Source: Xanthomonas axonopodis (GTDB lineage Bacteria > Pseudomonadota > Gammaproteobacteria > Xanthomonadales > Xanthomonadaceae). From it: a stretch of DNA of 39,024 bases. Below the pieces are notes generated by a model. The model was not told where the DNA came from. It ran no database searches and saw only the letters and a program-made list of their open reading frames with translations. The position numbers and the translations under genes were made by a program. This document shows, one piece after another, positions 8,646 through 30,393 of this stretch; within the stretch, counting starts at the first letter, position 1; each line of letters starts with the position of its first letter. Where the stretch lies: the NCBI RefSeq assembly GCF_001304695.1, contig NZ_JFAQ01000031.1, positions 1-39,024 of the forward strand. Direction: 5' to 3'.

Positions 8646-9794
8646 TCAGAGCTTCTGCAAACGCTCGATCGCCGCATCCAGCGTCGCAGCGTTCTTGGCG
8701 AAGCACAGCCGCGCCAGGCGCTGACCAGCCGGGGCATTCTCGTAGAACGGCGACAACGGAATCGCGGCCACGCCCTTCTCGATCGTCAGCCACTTCACGA
8801 ATTCGGTATCGGGCAAATCGCTGATCGCCGAGTAATCCACCAGCTGGAAGTAGCCGCCGGGCACGGGCAATGGTTTTAGACGGGTGGTCAGCAGCTGCTC
8901 GCGGAAGCGGTCGCGCTTGGCCTGGTAGAACGCGCCCAACTGCTCGTCGTGCTCGGGTTCGTCGCGGACCATTGCAGCGAAGGCGTGCTGGGCCGGACCG
9001 AAGCTGGTGAAGGTGTTGTACTGGTGCACCTTGCGAAATTCGGCCGTGAGCGCCGGCGGTGCGATGGCGTAGCCGATCTTCCAGCCGGTGCAGTGGTAGG
9101 TCTTGCCGAAGCTGGAAATCACGAATGCGCGCTCGCGCAATTCCGGCCAGAGCAACACCGATTCATGCCTGCGGCTGTCGAAGACGATGTGTTCGTACAC
9201 CTCATCCGACAACAAAAAGATCTCGGTGCCGCGCAGCAGCTCGGTCAGCGTCTGCAGGTCGGCGGCCGACAGCATCGCGCCGGACGGGTTGTGCGGGGAA
9301 TTGATCATCAACAGGCGCGTTTTGGGCGTGATCGCTGCACGCAGCGCATCCCAGTCGACCGCGAAGGTCTGCGGGTCAAGTGCCACATGCACCGCTCGTG
9401 CGCCGGCCAGATCGATCGCCGGTTCGTAGCAGTCGTAGGCCGGGTCCAGCACGATGACCGCTTCGCCGGCGCGCACCACGGCGTGGATGGCATTGAAGAT
9501 GGCCTCGGTGGCACCGCTGGTGACGGTGATCTCGGTGTCGGCATCGACCTGCGCGCCATAGCAGCGCTGGGCCTTGCCGGCGATGGCCTGGCGCAACGCG
9601 GCCACGCCGGTCATCGGCGGGTACTGGTTGTGGCCGGCCGCCATGGCCTTGCTGAGTTCGTCGACCAGCCGCTGCGGCACCGCGAAATCGGGAAAGCCCT
9701 GGCCCAGATTGACCGCGCCGTGCTCGGCCGCCAGCTGCGACATGACGGTGAAGATGGTGGTACCCACCTTGGGCAGCTTGGTCGTGAGGGGCAT
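8646..9794 (-). CDS. ybdL: Methionine (glutamine-type) aminotransferase, PLP-dependent class I
   Basis: Fold-type I aminotransferase that transfers the amino group between methionine, aromatic amino acids or glutamine and 2-oxo acids. 382 residues. Family motifs: [13 protein letters not shown] near the start, [26 protein letters not shown] (Asn169), SDEVYEH (Asp197) and the PLP lysine K231 in [17 protein letters not shown]; the substrate-binding Arg is in the C-terminal RLCFAKN. The HCTGWKIG version is typical of the YbdL group. ATG 9794 gives the normal length. The adjacent omega-amidase would pull the reaction forward by removing the 2-oxo-amide product when glutamine is the donor. The ccm cluster starts divergently 228 bp away. 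Confidence 0.92.
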
Positions 9795-9942
9795 GGCGCC
9801 TGTCCGGACAAGAAACGGGGGACCGCGAGTGTACGCAAAGCCGCCAGGCGGTTGCGCCCGGACATTGCAAAACAGCGTTCCCCGACCCATCGCGGCGCCC
9901 GCAGCGCTGCCGCACCCGTCCCCGGCGTGCCACCATCGTCGC

Positions 9943-9948
9943 TACAAT
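9943..9948 (+). promoter_or_regulatory. possible -10 element ahead of ccmA
   Basis: TACAAT in the context gctacaatgc resembles a sigma-70 -10 box, 74 bp upstream of the ccmA start. No good -35 is visible at the right distance, so the call is weak. Confidence 0.28.
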
Positions 9949-10021
9949 GCGCGCCCGGTCCGGCGCGTGCCCTGCCCCGGCCTTTCCCCATGCCGTCCTG
10001 CGACCCGAGCCTGCTGCACCG

Positions 10022-10666
10022 ATGATCGAACCGCTGCACACCGCAGCGCCGCTGCTGGCGGCGCACGCCCTGGCCTTCAGCCGCAACGAGGAGCCGGTGT
10101 TCGGCCCGCTGGATTTCCATGTCGATGCCGGCGAGGCGCTGCTGGTGCAAGGCGACAACGGCGCCGGCAAGACCACGTTGCTGCGCGTGCTGGCTGGCCT
10201 GCTGCATGTGGAGCGCGGGCAGATCCAGATCGATGGCAAGACCGCCAAGCGCGGCGACCGCAGCCGCTTCATGGCCTACCTCGGCCACCTGCCCGGCCTG
10301 AAGGCCGACCTCAGCACGCTGGAAAACCTGCATTTTCTGTGCGGTCTGCACGGCCGGCGCGCCAAGCAGATGCCCGGCAGCGCGCTGGCAATCGTGGGCC
10401 TGGCCGGTTACGAAGATGCGCTGGTACGGCAGTTGTCGGCGGGCCAGCGCAAGCGGCTGGCGCTGGCACGGCTATGGCTGTCGCCGGCGCCGCTCTGGTT
10501 GCTGGATGAGCCGTACGCCAACCTGGACCTGGATGGCATCACCCTGGTTAACCGAATGATCTCCGCGCATCTGCGCGGCGGTGGCGCGGCGCTGGTCACC
10601 ACGCACGGTGCGTATGCAGCACCGCCGGTGCGCACCCGTATGCTCACGCTGGAGGCTGCGGCATGA
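10022..10666 (+). CDS. ccmA: Heme exporter ATP-binding protein CcmA
   Basis: ATPase of the CcmABCD complex, which releases holo-CcmE from CcmC during system I cytochrome c maturation. 214 residues with a compact ABC domain: Walker [14 protein letters not shown]-loop region [11 protein letters not shown], signature [14 protein letters not shown], Walker [13 protein letters not shown] and the switch His in TTHGAY. The start at ATG 10022 matches family length (about 200-215). It is the first gene of a nine-gene cluster in the order ccmABCDEFGHI, all on the plus strand, and overlaps ccmB by ATGA. Confidence 0.95.
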
Positions 10667-19412: not shown

Positions 19413-21098
19413 CTATGCGTTCTGATCGAGCAACTCCAGCTTTCCCTCACGCATCCGGTAATGCCGCTGCACCACGCCGGGCGGTAGCGCGTCGTGGGTG
19501 ATCATCACCAGCGAGCGTTCGCCGAGTGCGGCGGCCAGGTCTAGCAGCAGCGCGTCGGCGGTATCCACGTCCAGACCATCGGTGGGCTCGTCGAGCAATA
19601 GGATCGGGGCCTCGCGCAGCAGTGCCCGCGCGAGGGCGAGCCGGCGCGCCTGGCCGGCTGACAGCGTGGCGCCGTTTTCGCCAACCCAGGTGTCCAGGCC
19701 GTTGTTCGCGCTGGCCCACGCGCCCAGGCGCACCTGTTCGAGTACCTGCCACAACGCGGCATCGTCGGCAGCGGCGTCGCCGATGAGCAGGTTGTCGCGC
19801 ACGCTGCCGGCAAATACCGGCGCATTCTGCGGCAGCCAGGCGATACGCTGGTGCCATTGCGCCTGTGCGACGTGGCGCAGGTCGATGCCTGCATAGTGCA
19901 GCTGCCCGGCCTGCGGATCCCACAGGCGCAGCAACAACGCCGACAGTGTGCTTTTACCGCTGCCGCTATCGCCGCTGATGGCAATGCGCTCGCCCGGCGC
20001 CAATGTCAGATCAAGCGCGTGCAGCACCGACCGCACGCTACCGGGCCAGGCAAACGACACCTGCTGCAATTGCAGCGTGCCAGTGCGCGGCACATCGATC
20101 ACGCGCGCCGGATCGCTGACCGACGGCGCTTGATCGACGATGGCCTGCAGGCGCCCGGCGGCAACGCGCGCACTTTGCAGCGCCTGCAAGGCCAGCCCGG
20201 CACCGGCCCAGACTTCCAGCAACGCCATGGTCAAAAACACCAACCCTGCTGCAAGCTCGGCCGCGATCAGCCCGCGTTCGGCCGCGCCGAGTGCCAGCCA
20301 CAGCATGCTGGCCAGCCCCAGCCCGCCACAGAGCGCGTGCAGCAGGTTGCCGGTGATCAGCCGTCTGCGCTGGATGCGATCGCCACCGGTCACGGCGGCG
20401 GCCGCGGTGTCGCTGCGCTGCAGCCAGGCCCCGTGCGCGTCGACCGCGGCAAGGTCGGCCGCACCCTCCAGGCCTTCGAAGGCTTGCGTACGCAAGTCGG
20501 TGCGCTGCTGCGCACGCAACTGCTCGCACTGCGCGCCCCCGCGTGCCACCTGCCACGACACCAGTCCGCCGATGAGCACGCCAAGCGCCAGCAACAACCA
20601 TGCAGCGGGAAGATAGATCAGTGCAGCGGCGACCACACCGCCTAACCAGATACCGAGCAACGCGGCCAGCGGTGCCAATGCGCGCACGCTGAGGCCGTCG
20701 ACCTCGCCGATGTCGGACATCAGCCGCGCCAGCAGATCACCGGTCCGGGTAGCCGACAATCTCCCGGGCGCCAGCGGCAAGGCGCGACGAAAGAACCACA
20801 CCCGCAGATCGCGGGCGATGCGCAAGGTGGCGTCGTGCCCGATCAACTTTTCGCCGTAGCGCGACACGATACGCGCGAATGTCAAGGCGCGAATGCCGGC
20901 CGACGGCGAGAAGAAATTGAAGCCGGTCCCCATGCCGGCGACGCCTGCCAGCGCAGCGGCGGTCAGGAAGCTGCCGGACAAGCCCAGCAGGCCGACACCG
21001 GCAAGCATGGTGACCAGCAGCAGCCCTGCCGACAACAGCAGACGCCAGGCATGCCGATGAAAGACATCGCGCAAACGATCGGGCTGGGCGGGGCTCAT
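19413..21098 (-). CDS. cydC: Heterodimeric cysteine/glutathione exporter, CydC subunit
   Basis: Half of the CydDC ABC exporter, which moves cysteine and glutathione to the periplasm and is needed for assembly of cytochrome bd and, in E. coli, for normal c-type cytochrome maturation. 561 residues: type I exporter membrane domain (about 1-320, six helices), then the ATPase with Walker A SGDSGSGKSTLSALLL, signature TLSAGQARRLALARALL, Walker B ILLLDEPTDGLD and the switch His in MITHDALP. All motifs are intact. The start overlaps the cydD stop by four bases. ATG 21098 gives the normal N-terminus. Confidence 0.94.
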   Translation of the reverse strand: MSPAQPDRLRDVFHRHAWRLLLSAGLLLVTMLAGVGLLGLSGSFLTAAALAGVAGMGTGFNFFSPSAGIRALTFARIVSRYGEKLIGHDATLRIARDLRVWFFRRALPLAPGRLSATRTGDLLARLMSDIGEVDGLSVRALAPLAALLGIWLGGVVAAALIYLPAAWLLLALGVLIGGLVSWQVARGGAQCEQLRAQQRTDLRTQAFEGLEGAADLAAVDAHGAWLQRSDTAAAAVTGGDRIQRRRLITGNLLHALCGGLGLASMLWLALGAAERGLIAAELAAGLVFLTMALLEVWAGAGLALQALQSARVAAGRLQAIVDQAPSVSDPARVIDVPRTGTLQLQQVSFAWPGSVRSVLHALDLTLAPGERIAISGDSGSGKSTLSALLLRLWDPQAGQLHYAGIDLRHVAQAQWHQRIAWLPQNAPVFAGSVRDNLLIGDAAADDAALWQVLEQVRLGAWASANNGLDTWVGENGATLSAGQARRLALARALLREAPILLLDEPTDGLDVDTADALLLDLAAALGERSLVMITHDALPPGVVQRHYRMREGKLELLDQNA

Positions 21099-22831
21099 GG
21101 TGCCTCCACCGTGACTGGCGCGCCGCGCAGATCGACCACAGTATCGGCCCAACGCATCACCGTAGCGCTGTGCGTCGCCAGAACGACCGCACGGCCGCGG
21201 GCGAAGATGCCCAGCGTACGCAGCAATTCCGCTTCGGTGTCCGGGTCGAGAAAGGCGGTGGGCTCGTCCAGCAGCAACACATCCGGCTCGCGCAACAACA
21301 GCCGCGCCAACGCCACGCGGCGGGCTTCGCCACCGGACAAACCAAAGCCACGCTCGCCGATCACCGTGTTCAGGCCCGCCGGCAACTGCGCTGTAAAGCG
21401 CAGCACTTGGGCCGCCTCGGCCACTGCGTGCAGGCGCGCATCACTGGCCTGCGGGTCGGCCAGGCGCAGGTTGTCGGCAATGCTGGCGTGAAACAGGTAG
21501 GGCCGCTGCGTGGCGTACCCAATGCGCGCACCTGGGCGCACGGCCACACTGCCTGCCTCGGGTGCAAGCCAACCGGCCAGCCCTTCCAGCAACGTGCTCT
21601 TGCCGCTGCCGCTGGCACCGATCACTGCCACGCGCTGCCCTGGCTCCAGCGTCAACGCAAACTCCTTAATCACCAGCTGCGGAGCGCCGGCAGGACGCAG
21701 CGCCAGTCCACGTGCCTGCAACAAAGGCGCATACGCTTGTGCAGGCTCCAGGGCACGTGCGGGGGGCACAGCGGTGTGCGCAGCGGCAGACGGCTGGAAA
21801 CCCTGCAGCAACCGCTGGGCCTCGGCCACTGCAGCCAAGGCGTTTGCGCGGTCATGGTAATGCGCGGCCAGGCGCCGCAGTGGCGCGAAGAACTCCGGCG
21901 CCAGCAAGAGGCAGAACATGCCCGCACCCAGCGACGGCATACCGTGCAGATAGAGCATGCCCAGATAACTCAAACCAAAGTACAGCGCCACGATCGCCAC
22001 GCTGACGGAGGCAAAAAATTCCAGCACGGTCGACGACAGGAATGCGATGCGCAAAACGTTCAGCGAGCGCTCGCGCACGCCCTCGGCAGCGGCGGCAATG
22101 CCCTGTAATTCGGCCTGGCCGCGGCCGTATACGCGCAGCAATCCCAAGCCTTTGAGCCGATCGGCAAAGTGCCCGCACATGCGCGCCAGCTCGCCAAGTT
22201 GCCCACGCCCCGCGGCCTCGGCGCCCCACCCCACCAGCATCATGAAGAACGGAATCAGCGGCGCGGTGAGCAGCAGCACCAGCCCGACCACCCAATCGAC
22301 CGAAAACACCGCGATCAGGATCAACGGCGGCACCAGCAACATTTCGATGCGTGCGAGCTGGTAGCCGACGAAATAGCCTTCCAGCGCATCGGTATGCGCC
22401 AGGCTTAATTCGCCCAGTTCGCCGCTGCGCTGCCGGCGCAGCCATAGCGGCCCGTGCTGTACCAGGCGTCGCGCAATGCGCGCGCGCAGTTCGCGTTTGG
22501 CCACGTCGGCCACTTCACCGGTCAGCGATTGCGCCCAGGCGTTGAGGAGCGCGCGCCCGATCAGCGCAACCAGCAACCCCGCGCCCACGTTGCGAAATTG
22601 CGCCAATGCCAGGTGCTGCACCAGCACCGCCTGTACCAGCCAGGCGATCGCGGCCGATTGCACAAGCAGCAACACACCCGACAACGCCACCGCCACGCCG
22701 GCAAGCCGCCGCGCGCGCGTGGCCGATGCGGCCAGCGCGTCCAGCCAGTGTCCGCGTTGACGGCGCTGGGCGGGCGTTTCGCTGGCTTGCACGCTGGGCT
22801 GGCTCACGTCGCTCTTCTGAAGACTGCGCAT
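21095..22831 (-). CDS. cydD: Heterodimeric cysteine/glutathione exporter, CydD subunit
   Basis: Partner of CydC. 578 residues: six-helix exporter domain (about 40-340), then the ATPase domain with Walker A IGASGSGKSTLLEGL, signature LSGGEARRVALARLLL, Walker B VLLLDEPTAFLDPDTEAE and LATHSATVMRWAD. The frame is intact throughout. ATG 22831 is taken as the start; the first 30 residues are polar and variable, so a start further in is possible. A perfect FNR-type box lies 70 bp upstream in the region shared with the divergent cydAB. It is notable that this pair is undamaged while the oxidase genes next to it are broken. Confidence 0.93.
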   Translation of the reverse strand: MRSLQKSDVSQPSVQASETPAQRRQRGHWLDALAASATRARRLAGVAVALSGVLLLVQSAAIAWLVQAVLVQHLALAQFRNVGAGLLVALIGRALLNAWAQSLTGEVADVAKRELRARIARRLVQHGPLWLRRQRSGELGELSLAHTDALEGYFVGYQLARIEMLLVPPLILIAVFSVDWVVGLVLLLTAPLIPFFMMLVGWGAEAAGRGQLGELARMCGHFADRLKGLGLLRVYGRGQAELQGIAAAAEGVRERSLNVLRIAFLSSTVLEFFASVSVAIVALYFGLSYLGMLYLHGMPSLGAGMFCLLLAPEFFAPLRRLAAHYHDRANALAAVAEAQRLLQGFQPSAAAHTAVPPARALEPAQAYAPLLQARGLALRPAGAPQLVIKEFALTLEPGQRVAVIGASGSGKSTLLEGLAGWLAPEAGSVAVRPGARIGYATQRPYLFHASIADNLRLADPQASDARLHAVAEAAQVLRFTAQLPAGLNTVIGERGFGLSGGEARRVALARLLLREPDVLLLDEPTAFLDPDTEAELLRTLGIFARGRAVVLATHSATVMRWADTVVDLRGAPVTVEAP

Positions 22832-22900
22832 TGCACGCGATTGTAAGTCGCCGCCTCCCGGTGGGCGATAGACAGTGTGACGCACCTGTTCAGCGCCGCA

Positions 22901-22914
22901 TTGATTTGGATCAA
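22901..22914. promoter_or_regulatory. FNR/Anr-type box between cydDC and cydAB
   Basis: TTGATTTGGATCAA is a perfect match to the FNR consensus TTGAT-N4-ATCAA. It lies 69 bp before the cydA ATG and 69 bp before the cydD ATG, almost midway in the divergent spacer. It suggests oxygen-responsive control of one or both transcripts. The regulator itself is not in the window. Confidence 0.82.
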
Positions 22915-22982
22915 CGCGGCCGGCGCGATAGCGGCAGATGATCACCACATTCCTTACCGAACCTCAACCAGGCCCACCCGCC

Positions 22983-24951
22983 ATGATCGACTCGACAGTC
23001 GTCGAACTGTCGCGGCTGCAGTTCGCAGTCACCGCGATGTACCACTTCATCATTTCCGCCGCTCACCATGGGTCTGTCGTTCCTGCTGGGCATCATGGAA
23101 AGTGTCTACGTCATGACCGGCAAGCAGGTCTGGCGGCGCATGACCATGTTCTGGGGTGTGCTGTTCGGCATCAACTTCGCCATGGGCGTCGGTACCGGCA
23201 TCGTGATGGAGTTCGAGTTCGGCATGAACTGGGCGTACTACAGCCATTACGTGGGCGACATCTTCGGTGCACCGCTGGCGATCGAAGGACTGATGGCGTT
23301 CTTTCTGGAAGCCACCTTTTTGGGACTGTTCTTTCTTGGCTGGAATCGCCTGAGCAAGGTGCAGCACCTGATCACCACCTGGCTGGTGGCGCTGGGCAGC
23401 AACTTCTCCGCGCTATGGATCCTGATCGCCAACGGCTGGATGCAGAATCCGGCCGGCGCGGTGTTCAACCCGGACACCATGCGCATGGAAGTGGTGGATT
23501 TCGTGGCAGTGCTGTTCAACCCGGTGGCGCAAGCCAAGTTCGTGCATACAGCCAGTGCCGGCTACGTGCGGGGCGCGGTATTCGTGATGTCGATCAGTGC
23601 GTTTTACCTGTTGCGCGGCAAGCATATTGAAATGGCACGGCGTTCGTTTGTGGTGGCTGCGGCGTTCGGTCTACTGTCGTCGCTGTCGGTGGTGGTGCTG
23701 GGCGACGAGAGCGGCTACGCCGCCAGCGAACACCAGAAGATGAAACTGGCGGCCATCGAAGCGATGTGGGAAACCGAAGCTGCACCGGCCGACTTCACTG
23801 CGTTCGGCATTCCGAACCAGACCACCCATCGCAACGATTACGCCATCAAGATTCCGTACCTGATGGGCTTGATCGCCATGCGTTCGCTGGATGAGCCAAT
23901 TCCGGGCATTCTCGCATTGGTCGGCCGTGCCGAACACCGCATCCGCGGTGGTCAAATCGCCTACGGCGCACTACAACGCATCCGCGCCGACAAGAACGAT
24001 GCCCAAGCGCGCAAGGTCTTCGATACGCATTGGCAGGACTTGGGCCACGGCCTGCTGCTCAAGCGCTACCGCGACGATATCGGCAATGCCACACCGGAGC
24101 AGATTGCGCAGGCTGCGATGGACACGGTGCCGCGCGTGCTGCCGCTGTTCTGGACCTTCCGCATCATGGCCGCGATCGGCATGTATCTCATCGTCTTTCC
24201 GGCGCTGATCATGGGCGTGGTGGTCGGCAACGTGCTGCTGGGGGTGCCGTTCCATTTCGACGACAGCATGCGCACGTTCTACACCGGCAACCTGTTGGGG
24301 CTGCTGACGCCGTTCGCATTGCTCGCCGGTTTGCTCAGCGTGGCCATGCTGCTCGCGCATGGCGCCGCGATGCTGGTGCTCAAGACCGAGGGAACGGTGG
24401 CCGAGCGGGCGGCGCGTTTTGGCAGCATCGCCGCGCTATGTGCGCTGGCACTGTTTGCAGCAGGCGGTGCGTGGGTGGCGCTGGGTCTGCCCGGCTATGC
24501 GGTGACCTCGGTGCTGGCGACCGACGCGCCGACCAACCCGCTTGGCAAGACCGCTGCGTTCACCGCCGCGGGCGGCTGGTTGCACAACTACAGCAGCATG
24601 CCGGCCACATTGATGGCGCCGCTGGTGGGCCTGGTCGGGCTTGCAATGAGCGCGGTGCTCTTACGCATGCGGCGCGGTGGCCTGGCCTTCATTGCCTCCG
24701 GCAGCGCCATCGTCGGCATCGTGTTCACGGTGGGCTTTGCGTTGTTCCCGTTCCTGTTGCCCTCTTCCACCGCGCCGAGCGCGAGCCTGACAGTGTGGGA
24801 TGCATCCAGCAGCCGTCTTACGTTGTGGATCATGTTGTTGGCCACTGCCGTATTCATGCCGATCGTGCTGGCGTACACCAGCTGGGTGTATCGCGTGCTC
24901 AAGGGCAAGGTCACCGACGATGCGGTCACGGCCAATCCCAACGCGTACTGA
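22983..24951 (+). pseudogene. cydAB: cytochrome bd oxidase remnant: frameshifted CydA joined in frame to CydB
   Basis: CydA begins at ATG 22983 ([20 protein letters not shown]) with the first heme ligand His in MYHF. Near 23049-23056 one base is extra: dropping it turns ISAAHHG into [17 protein letters not shown], the expected sequence. From 23068 one open frame of 627 codons continues CydA through the second helices, [21 protein letters not shown], the b558 His in [11 protein letters not shown], the Q-loop ([12 protein letters not shown]) and the Met of [15 protein letters not shown]. At about 24190-24205 the sequence becomes CydB from its middle ([22 protein letters not shown] to the end [13 protein letters not shown]). 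About 120 residues of CydA, including the GRQPW motif and the adjacent b595 Glu, and about 125 of CydB are missing. The product can hardly be a working oxidase. Confidence 0.9.
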
Positions 24952-25042: not shown

Positions 25043-25153
25043 ATGTGGTATTTCGCATGGATACTTGGCACCGGCCTGGCGGCATTGGCCGCGGTGCTCA
25101 ACGGCATGTGGTTCGAAGCACGCGAGCCCGAGCGTGGTGAGCCGCCTCAGTAA
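25043..25153 (+). CDS. cydX: Cytochrome bd small subunit CydX
   Basis: A 36-residue single-helix protein, MWYFAWILGTGLAALAAVLN then GMWFEARE. It matches the CydX/CbdX pattern: MWYFAWILG start, one helix, and a conserved Glu just after it. CydX packs against CydA and is needed for stable cytochrome bd in E. coli. A strong ribosome site (gaggag, 25030-25035) precedes the ATG. The frame is intact although the oxidase genes upstream are broken, so its partner is probably absent. Confidence 0.9.
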   Translation: MWYFAWILGTGLAALAAVLNGMWFEAREPERGEPPQ

Positions 25154-25372: not shown

Positions 25373-26638
25373 ATGTCTGTTGTCACTGCCGCGTCTTCTT
25401 CGTCCGCCCAGTTGCGTGGTCGCGGCCTGGTGCTGGCCGCGATTTTGCTGTCCGCATTCAACTTGCGCACTGCGGTGACGTCGCTGACGCCGCTACTGGA
25501 ACGCATTGCCGACGAGTACGCCTTCGGCGCGCCTACCATGGGTGCGCTCGGCATGTTGCCGACCGCAGCGTTCGCACTCACCGGCGTGGGGACGCCCGCG
25601 TTGCTGCGCCGTTTCGGCTTGCTGCGCGTGGCCCTGTTGTCGATGGCGCTGGCCACGTTTGGCTTGGTGTTGCGCCCGCTGCTGCCGGGCACCGCCGGGT
25701 TGCTGGTCGGCTCGCTGGTGGCGTTGGCCGGCATGGGCATGGGCAACGTGGTGCTGCCACCGCTGGTGAAGCGCTACTTCGGCGACCGCGTGAGCCGTGT
25801 CAGCACGCTGTACATCACCGTGCTGCAGGTCGGCACGCTGCTGCCGGCGCTGCTGGCAGTACCGGTGGCCGATGCGCTGGGGTGGCGCAGTTCGATGGTG
25901 GTATGGGTGCTGCCAGCCCTGCTGGCGTCGGCCGCGTGGGCACTGGTGCATGCCAGCCAGGGGCGCCTGCGCGCCACCGGCCCGGCACCGGTGACCCCGA
26001 CGCCCGAAGCCGAAGGCCGCGTCGCCCGCACTGCGCTAGGGTGGAGCATGGCGGTAACCTTCGGCATGACCTCGCTGGTGACCTATTCCATGTTCACCTG
26101 GCTGCCGACGCTGCTGCGCGAAGCCGGTGCATCGCCTGCGTTCGGCGGCACCATGGTGGCGTTGTTCGCGGCATTGGGCATGGTCGGGGCGCTGACCATG
26201 CCGGCACTGGCGGTGCGCATGCGTAACCCGTTTCCGATCGTGCTGCTCTGCGCGGCCTGCCACCTTGTCGCGTTTGCCGGGCTGTGGTGGGCGCCGCTGG
26301 CCGCACCGGTCCTGTGGGTGACCCTGCTTGGTCTGGGGCCGAGCACGTTTCCGCTGGCATTGGTGTTGGTGAATCAGCGCAGCCGCACGGCGGCCGGTTC
26401 GGCCGCACTGTCCGGCTTCTCGCAGGGCGTGGGCTATGCGGTGAGCTGCCTGGGGCCATTCCTGTTCGGCTGGCTGCACGCACACAGTGGCGGCTGGACC
26501 TCCCCGTTCGTGTTCCTGGTCATCTGCCTGCTGGTGCAGCTGGCCGCCGCCTGGGTGGTCTGCCGCCCGCAGTTGCTGGAAGATGCGTGGGCGCCGCCGG
26601 CACGCGGCGCCCGCGCGCTCAACGTACCGGCAGACTGA
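25373..26638 (+). CDS. MFS transporter, CynX/NimT family
   Basis: A 421-residue major facilitator with 12 predicted helices and a central cytoplasmic loop (about 200-220). The CynX/NimT (cyanate/nitroimidazole) group is indicated by the N-terminal LSAFNLRTAVTSLTPLLERI, which fits the family's start helix, and by GMGMGNVVLPPLVKRYFGDRVS after helix 4. The substrate is not known; members include the cyanate porter CynX and the 2-nitroimidazole exporter NimT. ATG 25373 is chosen because earlier codons lie in the tRNA terminator. Its last 20 bases overlap the 3' end of the convergent ester hydrolase pseudogene. Confidence 0.88.
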   Translation: MSVVTAASSSSAQLRGRGLVLAAILLSAFNLRTAVTSLTPLLERIADEYAFGAPTMGALGMLPTAAFALTGVGTPALLRRFGLLRVALLSMALATFGLVLRPLLPGTAGLLVGSLVALAGMGMGNVVLPPLVKRYFGDRVSRVSTLYITVLQVGTLLPALLAVPVADALGWRSSMVVWVLPALLASAAWALVHASQGRLRATGPAPVTPTPEAEGRVARTALGWSMAVTFGMTSLVTYSMFTWLPTLLREAGASPAFGGTMVALFAALGMVGALTMPALAVRMRNPFPIVLLCAACHLVAFAGLWWAPLAAPVLWVTLLGLGPSTFPLALVLVNQRSRTAAGSAALSGFSQGVGYAVSCLGPFLFGWLHAHSGGWTSPFVFLVICLLVQLAAAWVVCRPQLLEDAWAPPARGARALNVPAD

Positions 26639-28533
26639 TGTAGCTGGGCTGCTCGGGTGACACGTACACCCGCTGCGTGGCCTTCTGATAATCGCCGGGC
26701 TTGGCGAAGAAGATGTTGGGCACGTAGGTCTGCGGATTGCGGTCGTACAGCGGGAACAGGCTGGACTGCACCTGCACCATCACCCGGTGGCCCGGCTGGA
26801 AGGTGTGGTTGGCGGTCGGCAAGCCGAACTGGAATGCCAGCGGCTGATTGGACGCCAAGGGTTTGGGCGTGCTGAAACTCTCGCGGTAGCCGGCCGCGGA
26901 AGATCGCCAACGACACCGGCAACTCGTAGCCGCCCATCTTCGGGTTCGACGCCATCTCCTCCGGATACACGTCGATCAGCTTCACCACCCAATCGCTGTC
27001 ACTGCCGCTGGTGGAGGCCTGCAGATGCACTTCGGGCGCACCGGCGATCTGCAGTGGCTCGGTCAGCGGCTCGGTGACGAAGGTCAGCACATCCGGGCGG
27101 CCATCTACAAAGCGCTGGTCGTGCACCAGCCAGATGGTCCACATCGCGCGGTCGGCAAAATCCACCGGGCGCGGCACGAACGGCACCGGCTTGGCCGGGT
27201 CGGACACGTACTCTTCAAACCCCGCCTGCCCGGCCACCGGCTGCTGGAACGACAACTTGCCGCCGGCCTGCAGATACAGCGGCTTGCTGGCCGAGACGCA
27301 GCCCTTGTCGCAACTGCGCGGCCACGCCTTGAGGCGGTCCCAATGGTTCTCCCCGGTGTTGTAGATGAACACCGGCGGCGTGTCTGCCTTGGGCGCGCCA
27401 TCGACCAGGTACTGGTCGAAGAACGGGCGCAGCACCTCGGAACGGAACTGGCGCGCGGTGTCGCCTTCGAAATTCAGCGCACCCAAGGTGCTGCCGTCGT
27501 AGTTCACCTGACTGTGGCGCCACGGGCCCATCACCAGGTAGTTGAGGGTATTGCTCTTATCGCGCGGCTCCATCGCCGCGTAGCTGTGGATCGCACCCCA
27601 CATGTCTTCCTGATCCCACAGACCTTGCAGCCACATCGTGGGCACCTTCAGCGGCGTGCGCGCTATCACCTTGTCCAGCGCCTGCTCCTGCCAGAACGCG
27701 TCATAGGCGGCGTGTTCGGTGAGCTTATGCCACCACGGCAACTGCTCCAGGCCTGCGGCCTTGGCGAAGTCGCCGGCCGAGCCGGCCTGCAGGAAATTGC
27801 TGTAATCGTCGTGCCCCTGGCGCGCGATGCCGGCGCCCTTGCCGCGCTTGCTGAGCTGGCCGGTGAAGTAATCGAAATTGACCTGGCGGAACGCGCCGTA
27901 GTTGAACCAGTCATCGCCCATCCAGCCGTCGATCATCGGGCTTTCCGGCACCGCCACCTTCAACGCAGGATGCGGGTGGGTCAGCGCCATCACCACGGTG
28001 AATCCTTCGTAGGACGAGCCGACCATGCCGACCTTTCCGTTGGATTCCTTGACGTTCTTGACCAGCCAATCGATGGTGTCCCAGGCATCGGTGGCATGGT
28101 CGACCTCGCTGGAATTGAGCGGCCCACGCAGCGGGCGGGTCATCACGTAGTCGCCTTCGGAACCGTATTTGCCGCGCACGTCCTGAAACACACGGATGTA
28201 GCCGCCTTCCACGAAGACATCGTCGCCGGCAGACAGCAGGTCCTTCATATGCGGCGAGGCCAGCCGTTCGGTGCGGCCACTGGCATCGTAAGGCGTGCGC
28301 GTCAGCACGATCGGTGCGTTCCTGGCGCCCTTGGGCAGCACGATCACCGTGTGCAGCTTGACCCCATCGCGCATCGGAATCATCACCTCGCGCTTGATGT
28401 AGTCGTTGCTGGCATCGGCAGCCACGAACGGCTTGCCGGTGATGTCCGGCGTCATCGGCGAGGTTTGCGTCATCGCGGTGCCGGTGGCGGCGGCAATGGC
28501 GGTGGCGAGCAGGCAGGCGGCAAGGCGGCGCAT
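26619..28533 (-). pseudogene. alpha-amino acid ester hydrolase, frameshifted near the C-terminus
   Basis: The intact enzyme family (AEH; peptidase S15/CocE relatives) hydrolyses or makes esters and amides of alpha-amino acids, including beta-lactam side chains, in the periplasm. It has a signal peptide (MRRLAACLLATAIAAATGTA), an alpha/beta-hydrolase domain with the nucleophile Ser174 in MVGSSYEGFTVV and the acid in LQGLWDQEDMWG, and the His in GPWRHSQVNYDG. After the jelly-roll segment MGGYELPVSLAIFRG one extra base near 26893-26898 (cggccggcta for cggccgcta) shifts the frame. The true C-terminus continues in another frame from about 26890 as YRESF...ASNQPLAFQFGLPTA to QPSYISLPVR. About 90 residues of the C-terminal domain are thus lost. 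A sequencing error cannot be excluded. Confidence 0.88.
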
Positions 28534-28691
28534 GGAATCTCCGGCAGCAACGGTGGGCAGGACGAACAACTGCGGCAGCGTAGACACAGACAACTGGCTT
28601 GCGGGAGTGTCGAAGGTACCGGGTCGGCCAGGCTACGGCGAGCACGCGCTGCGGATCGGCTGCAAGGCGACGACATTTCTGTTGTCCTGAA

Positions 28692-30393
28692 ATGACCACG
28701 CCGTGCGTGCATACCTTGCCCGTCAGTTTTCGATCGGTGCGCGATAACGGCCTGCGCGATGCCGCAGCGCTGCGCGTGCATAGCGATAGTGGCAGGCTCG
28801 AAACAGGCGACGGCATCCTGCGGTTTCATGACTGCAGTGGGCTGACCATCGTGTTGTGCGGCGACACCGACTACGCCGCCGATGGCGCACGCGGCTGGCG
28901 CGACGCCACGCGCGACCCGCTCGCACTGGCGCGCAACCGCGCACAGGCCGCTGCTGCAGTGCCTGCGGCGCTGTTGCTGGACACCCATGTTGCCGATCAC
29001 CGTGCGCTGTTCGACACGTTGCAGGTGGAGCTTGCCAGTCCAGCGACACGCAACGCGGCCTGGAGACCTGGTAGCGGATCCAGGCCCGCGACGCCGCGCC
29101 CGCGCTCCCCGACCCGGAACTGGAGGTGGCCTATCTGCAATTTGGCCGCTATCTCACCATCGCCGCCTCGCGCGATGGATTGCCCACCAACCTGCCCTGT
29201 GGCTGGAAAACAACGATCCGCCATGGATGAGCGACTACCACAGCGACATCAATCTGCAGATGAACTACTGGCTAGCGGACCCGTCCGGCCTGGGCGCCTG
29301 CGTTGACGCGCTGACACGCTATTGTCTGGCGCAGTTGCCGTCCTGGACACGCATCACCCAGACCCACTTCAACGACCCGCGCAATCGTTTCCGCAACACC
29401 TCCGGCAAGATCGCCGGCTGGACCGTGGCCATTTCCACCAATCCGTTCGGCGGCCATGGCTGGTACTGGCACCCGGCAGGCAACGCGTGGTTATGCGACA
29501 GCCTGTGGCAGCACTACGCGTTCACCCAGAACCGGGATGACCTCACGCGCATCTACCCGCTGCTCAAGGGCGCCTGGTCGCCCGAGCATGGCCCAGAAAA
29601 TGCGCGTGGGATTGCCTATGCGCAGGAACTGGTGTCGGCGCTGTTCGGGCAATACCGCCAGGCCAGCGCCCTGCTTGGCCGCGACGCCACCTACGCCGCG
29701 ACCATCGCCACGCTGCAGCAGCGTCTGTACCTACCGGAAATCAGTCCGCTCAGCGGCCAATTGCAGGAATGGATGTCCCCCACCCAATTGGGTGAAACCC
29801 ATCACCGGCAGCTGTCGCCACTGATGGGTTTATTCCCCGGCCATCGCCTGCACCCGGATCTGGCGCCGCCTGCGCAGGTGGAAGCAGCGCGCAAGCTGCT
29901 GGAAGCGCGCGGCATGCAGAGCTTTGGCTGGGCCTGCGCATGGCGGGCGCTGTGCTGGGCAAGACTGGGCGATGCAGAACGTGCTTATGCGTTGGTGCTG
30001 ACCAATCTGAAACCCTCGATCGGTCACAGCAACGGCACCGCGCCGAACCTGTTCGATATCTACGATCTCAGCCAGCATGGCGACCCCACCCTTGGAGGGG
30101 TGTTCCAGATCGATGCCAACGTCGGCACCCCGTCCGCAATGCTGGAAATGCTGCTGTATTCGCGCCCTGGCCAGATCACGCTGCTGCCGGCACTGCCCAA
30201 GGCCTGGGCCGCGCAAGGCCGGGGGACCGGCCTGGGCGCACGCGGCGGGTTCGTGGTCGACATGGCATGGCGCAACGGCGTGCCGACGCAGATCAGCGTG
30301 CGCAGCGTCGGCGGCACCCGCACCCGCATTGCCTGGGGCACTCAGGCGCACGACGTTACGCTTGCACGCGGCCAAGTGCAGCGCGTGCTGTGA
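28692..30393 (+). pseudogene. decayed GH95 family glycosidase (alpha-L-fucosidase type)
   Basis: GH95 enzymes remove terminal alpha-1,2-fucose or alpha-galactose from plant or animal glycans. Four lesions are visible. The N-terminal domain is missing: similarity starts at CVHTLPVSFRSVRDNG. A first frameshift falls near 29045-29062. The second frame (RIQARDAAPALPDPELEVAY, on to GLPTN) contains an in-frame TAG at 29072-29074. A loss of four bases near 29200 (ctgccctgtggctgg for an expected ctgcagggcctgtggctgg) shifts to the third frame. That frame gives LWLENNDPPWMSDYHSDINL, WYWHPAGNAWLCDSLWQHYA and the rest, but about 30-40 residues appear lost between YPLLKGA and WSPEHGPENARG. The C-terminal half is otherwise continuous to DVTLARGQVQRVL. 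Confidence 0.88.

Follow-up and report, generated by a model that had tools for sequence, protein, structure and literature searches.

The closest described counterpart of the proteins considered here is the canonical cytochrome bd-I quinol oxidase of E. coli, whose two large subunits are encoded by cydAB. For this enzyme, an excerpt of PMC8585947 assigns His186 and Met393 as ligands of heme b558, Glu445 as ligand of heme b595 and His19 as ligand of heme d. An excerpt of a second paper (PMC6853902) assigns Glu99 to heme d as axial ligand, though according to one of its figure legends this residue is not recruited by the heme d iron, and it describes Asp58, Asp105 and Lys109 as residues of a proton path in CydB.

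We have investigated a cydAB locus of Xanthomonas in a window of 39,024 bases, which denotes the whole stretch of DNA that was analysed and which comprises all of contig C235 in a draft genome (4.48 Mb, 325 contigs). The locus is very probably the remnant of a decayed operon (a pseudogene) that had encoded an oxidase of the E. coli bd-I type, in a Xanthomonas with other oxidase genes.

The fused open frame and its relation to cytochrome bd-I

The locus is defined by the following features.

22983..23630, plus strand: frame from the canonical CydA start, which departs from CydA after codon 22-23 and then stops (translation; alignment with nine relatives)
23045..23068, plus strand: frameshift stretch with a one-base length difference to the relatives (9/9 relatives aligned)
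23068..24951, plus strand: fused open frame of 627 codons, covering CydA residues ~29-404 and then CydB residues ~134-383 in the numbering of the relative G016 (list of open reading frames, domain matches, alignments)
24190..24200, plus strand: deletion junction, with 823 bp missing compared to the relatives G016 and G011 and ~0.84 kb compared to G027 (alignments with relatives)

As described in a first-pass annotation of this DNA, a single frame turns from CydA to CydB in mid-protein. Within its translation, residues 1-382 match positions 21-334 of the 418 positions of Pfam PF01654 (CydA), followed by a match of residues 376-610 to positions 122-301 of the 302 positions of PF02322 (CydB). Among the named matches, the best six to the fused protein all originate from Xanthomonas, with a best segment that is 93-98% identical. 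In comparison to the intact relative G016 (CydA, 540 aa; CydB, 383 aa), which served as reference for residue losses, CydA is retained to about residue 404 and CydB starts from about residue 134, leaving ~136 C-terminal residues of the former and ~133 N-terminal residues of the latter missing. The first-pass annotation had thus correctly noted the absence of both ends, but its estimates of ~120 and ~125 residues were slightly low. The 627 codons that it had placed after the junction are those of the entire frame, with only ~250 codons located 3' of this point.

When compared to the E. coli enzyme (PDB 6rko), the fused frame aligns to residues 27-414 of subunit 1 and residues 122-375 of subunit 2. 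As in bd-I, the equivalents of the b558 ligands are present, with His186 corresponding to a histidine encoded at 23545 and Met393 to a methionine encoded at 24166, and the equivalents of Glu99 and Glu107 are likewise retained. Unlike in bd-I, both subunits share one frame, and this fused frame does not include the first helix, which is found in another frame together with the equivalent of His19 (at 23043). Also missing are the C-terminal part of CydA, where the counterpart of Glu445 would be located, and the initial third of CydB. The alignments therefore agree with the earlier statement that the GRQPW motif and the b595 glutamate are absent from the fused frame whereas the b558 methionine is kept. 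The proton-path residues Asp58, Asp105 and Lys109, as numbered in the excerpt of PMC6853902, precede residue 122 of subunit 2 and hence fall into the lost part. Neither subunit is complete. With its normal start lost and the ligands of hemes d and b595 without counterparts, the fused frame would not be expected to yield a working bd oxidase.

A deletion and a second lesion near the start of cydA

An alignment with cydAB of other Xanthomonas strains, which the first-pass annotation had proposed as a check, places the break between window positions 24193 and 24194 (join at ~24193-24197), in surroundings that are collinear with those of the three nearest relatives G016, G027 and G011. All three are longer by ~0.82-0.84 kb at the same place, the operon being intact in G016 and G027 and interrupted in G011, which does not carry the deletion, by one stop in cydA. 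The missing piece contains the end of cydA including the sequence encoding GRQPW, the spacer and the start of cydB with ~133 of its codons. Decay by way of an in-frame deletion, which had been favoured initially, is thus borne out by the presence of this piece in all three relatives.

A further lesion had escaped the first-pass annotation. The one-base difference at 23045-23068 was seen again in separate pairwise comparisons with G016, G011 and G027, and as a consequence the frame from the canonical start terminates at 23630. Position 22983, previously given as the beginning of the feature, does correspond to the canonical start of CydA but is out of frame with 23068-24951. Of the codons ATG, GTG and TTG, the first to occur in the fused frame is an ATG at 23068, with no Shine-Dalgarno-like run recognizable by eye in the 25 bases 5' of it. 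Because the canonical start at 22983 is likewise devoid of a strong Shine-Dalgarno sequence, this absence is weak evidence against translation.

Explanations of the open frame

A deletion puts two frames in phase with a chance of one in three, and the CydB codons are then stop-free by descent. In the course of decay, a deletion of ~0.82 kb without repeats at its ends has excised the 3' part of cydA together with the spacer and the 5' part of cydB, and its length happens to bring the frames into phase, with the CydB codons being read on from CydA without a stop. A separate frameshift is located near the start of cydA. We infer that the fused frame is little or not translated and that it is without function.

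In simulations of random substitutions, the frame was still open in 1527 of 2000 cases after 11 changes, in 1174 of 2000 after 23 and in 706 of 2000 after 46. Its openness thus needs no selection and is expected by chance often enough. The earlier suggestion that the long frame may carry meaning is accordingly not supported, all the less so given the second lesion, which cuts off the normal start.

Changes unique to single lineages were counted as silent and replacing, leaving out sites at which the outgroups differed both among themselves and from the respective taxon. The resulting numbers (silent/replacing) are 7/7 in CydA and 5/4 in CydB for the window, 8/0 and 5/2 for G016, 6/2 and 8/4 for G027, and 7/3 (one of the three being the stop) and 5/3 for G011. 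Fisher tests, all uncorrected, gave p = 0.046 for CydA between the window and G016 plus G027, p = 0.085 for both parts in the same comparison and p = 0.039 for both parts between the window and G016. In CydB alone, the window is not clearly different from G011 or G027. The excess of replacing changes on the branch of the window leans weakly towards relaxed constraint. Taken by itself, the open frame tells little about whether the fusion was selected for, and the substitution counts offer weak evidence on this point.

If the operon were in reality intact, its short form would be the product of an assembly collapse and the frameshift a base error. Such errors might be anticipated in a draft of 325 contigs, and other frame-breaking differences are found at window position 26890 and in the CydB gene on contig C305. 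A comparison of the window with 28 open reading frames of G016, picked by length and base composition and counting matches with >75% identity, revealed four that are distributed over more than one frame and four more with one stop. However, the other 20 read in one frame without stop (cydB in part only), and the extra base at 23045-23068 is not contained in a long homopolymer. Moreover, the ends of the deletion have 1-3 bases in common at most, even if one changed base is accepted at the join, which is too few to mislead an assembler; the deletion thus looks non-homologous, rather than like a collapsed repeat. When the G016 piece, edges included, was used as query against the genome, no near-identical copy of the missing piece was returned; the matches comprised its two edges, both located in the window, and three further ones with 67-81% identity. 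For these reasons, we consider an artefact, and with it the collapsed assembly that the first-pass annotation had envisaged, to be improbable.

Even smaller is the probability that we assign to a functional fused membrane protein translated from the internal ATG at 23068, which would act as a quinol-binding or heme protein with b558 only. Such a protein would be compatible with the 627 open codons, with the retained equivalents of His186, Met393, Glu99 and Glu107, the third of which is named as axial ligand of heme d in the excerpt of PMC6853902, and with the intact cydX downstream. It is at odds with a normal start that is out of frame, the missing equivalents of His19 and Glu445, the loss of the CydB region that contains the three proton-path residues of the same excerpt, the lack of a fused relative among the 79 readable loci of the 80 listed by name (the best 80 of 582) and the finding that random change not infrequently leaves the frame open. 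Equally hard to credit is a single-chain protein with the quinol site of b558 only, which would have emerged as by-product of decay and found residual use, for example in binding quinol, heme or CydX; a b558-only protein is conceivable but unsupported here.

The reading as a decayed operon, by contrast, draws on inactivating lesions, a deletion and a frameshift, that are evident in comparison to orthologues at the same place, which are intact in 27 of 35 genomes. The deletion is defined against the three nearest relatives within a collinear neighbourhood and the frameshift against nine of nine aligned sequences, the same operon is broken by other lesions in six further genomes of the 35, and the seven replacing versus seven silent changes in CydA on the branch of the window compare to zero versus eight in G016. 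Points against decay are the open state of the fused frame, the preservation of cydX and of the neighbouring ABC transporter genes, and the restriction of the observation to one strain. As an enzyme, the fused frame carries little weight and most likely reflects ordinary pseudogene formation with a chance in-frame join. Its interest lies in natural history, as one example among several in a single bacterial genus where the bd-I operon has been lost, here with the transporter and other oxidase genes kept, and in the warning that two lesions can leave behind an extended open frame that matches two domains well and could be annotated as a fused oxidase.

The operon in the genus and its genomic surroundings

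In a survey of 35 genomes of the genus, 34 of which gave a readable locus, the operon was classified as intact if both subunits were found in full single frames without stops. This was the case in 27 genomes; the operon is broken in seven and was not found in one, G028 (81% complete), for which no operon-level match was listed. The broken cases include the genome of the window (G000), G011, whose cydA contains one stop, G033, both genes of which show frame changes that could be sequencing errors, and G008, G029, G018 and G019, where pieces only were detected. Like in the window, the operon of the latter six is disrupted by a stop, a frameshift or the loss of segments; unlike in the window, their matched pieces in no case (0/6) join both subunits in one frame, and their lesions differ from those described above. 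As the lesions of G000, G011 and G033 differ from each other, these losses look independent when judged from their sequences. In G018 and G019, scattered pieces of cydA were found and no match to cydB, and in G018, G019 and G028 the matches to the neighbouring ABC transporter gene are short only, so that the whole cyd region may have been lost in these three genomes.

Among the best 80 of 582 confirmed loci that were listed by name, 79 have halves that are separated by 746-859 bases more than in the window and none of these is fused, whereas the remaining one (L107) contains no pair and matches residues of CydA only, near the end of a contig. The fusion as a family was thus set aside for these loci, with rarer fused homologues being possible. 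A plasmid search returned 12 records, none of which covers 80% of the query. In the literature searches, no listed title concerned a cydAB fusion in Xanthomonas and the term 'cyda pseudogene' gave no match.

The damaged genes are surrounded by the following features.

19413..22948, minus strand: two divergent ABC transporter genes (19413-21152 and 21095-22948), open in the window (open reading frames, domains, relatives)
22901..22914, no strand assigned: palindromic sequence TTGAT-N4-ATCAA 5' of cydA, unchanged between the window and the nine relatives aligned
25043..25153, plus strand: cydX-like gene of a small subunit, 36 aa, intact, with GAGGAG upstream (PF08173 match within the open reading frame; frame and relatives)

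By its position, we take the transporter pair to be cydDC-like, and the palindrome is presumably an FNR-like site (FNR box). Elsewhere in the genome, contig C286 encodes a bd pair with CydA and CydB both open and without stops, which rules out a loss of every bd oxidase. Contig C305 encodes another, in which CydA is open and CydB is split into three pieces, one of them containing a TGA, and there are two genes of the COX1 family. With other oxidase genes kept, the loss of the bd-I oxidase is plausibly tolerated. The CydB on C305 (2683-3643, locus L137 of G000) shows two small length differences to five relatives.

Frame changes were also observed in other genes of the window. An open reading frame with an aminotransferase domain (8649-10272, minus strand) is found in two frames with a hole at ~9821-9964; since the frame likewise changes in G027 and G011 along this G016 open reading frame, the longer version in G016 may not be the true gene. 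Downstream of the oxidase locus, a gene for an S15-family peptidase or esterase (26622-28752, minus strand) is split over two frames, with a one-base difference to G016, G011 and G027 at ~26890, and a gene of glycoside hydrolase family 95 (28722-30390, plus strand) is distributed over three frames, with ~0.78 kb of G016 and G027 missing near 28739-28743. Together with cydAB, these two genes form a run of damaged genes within 8 kb.
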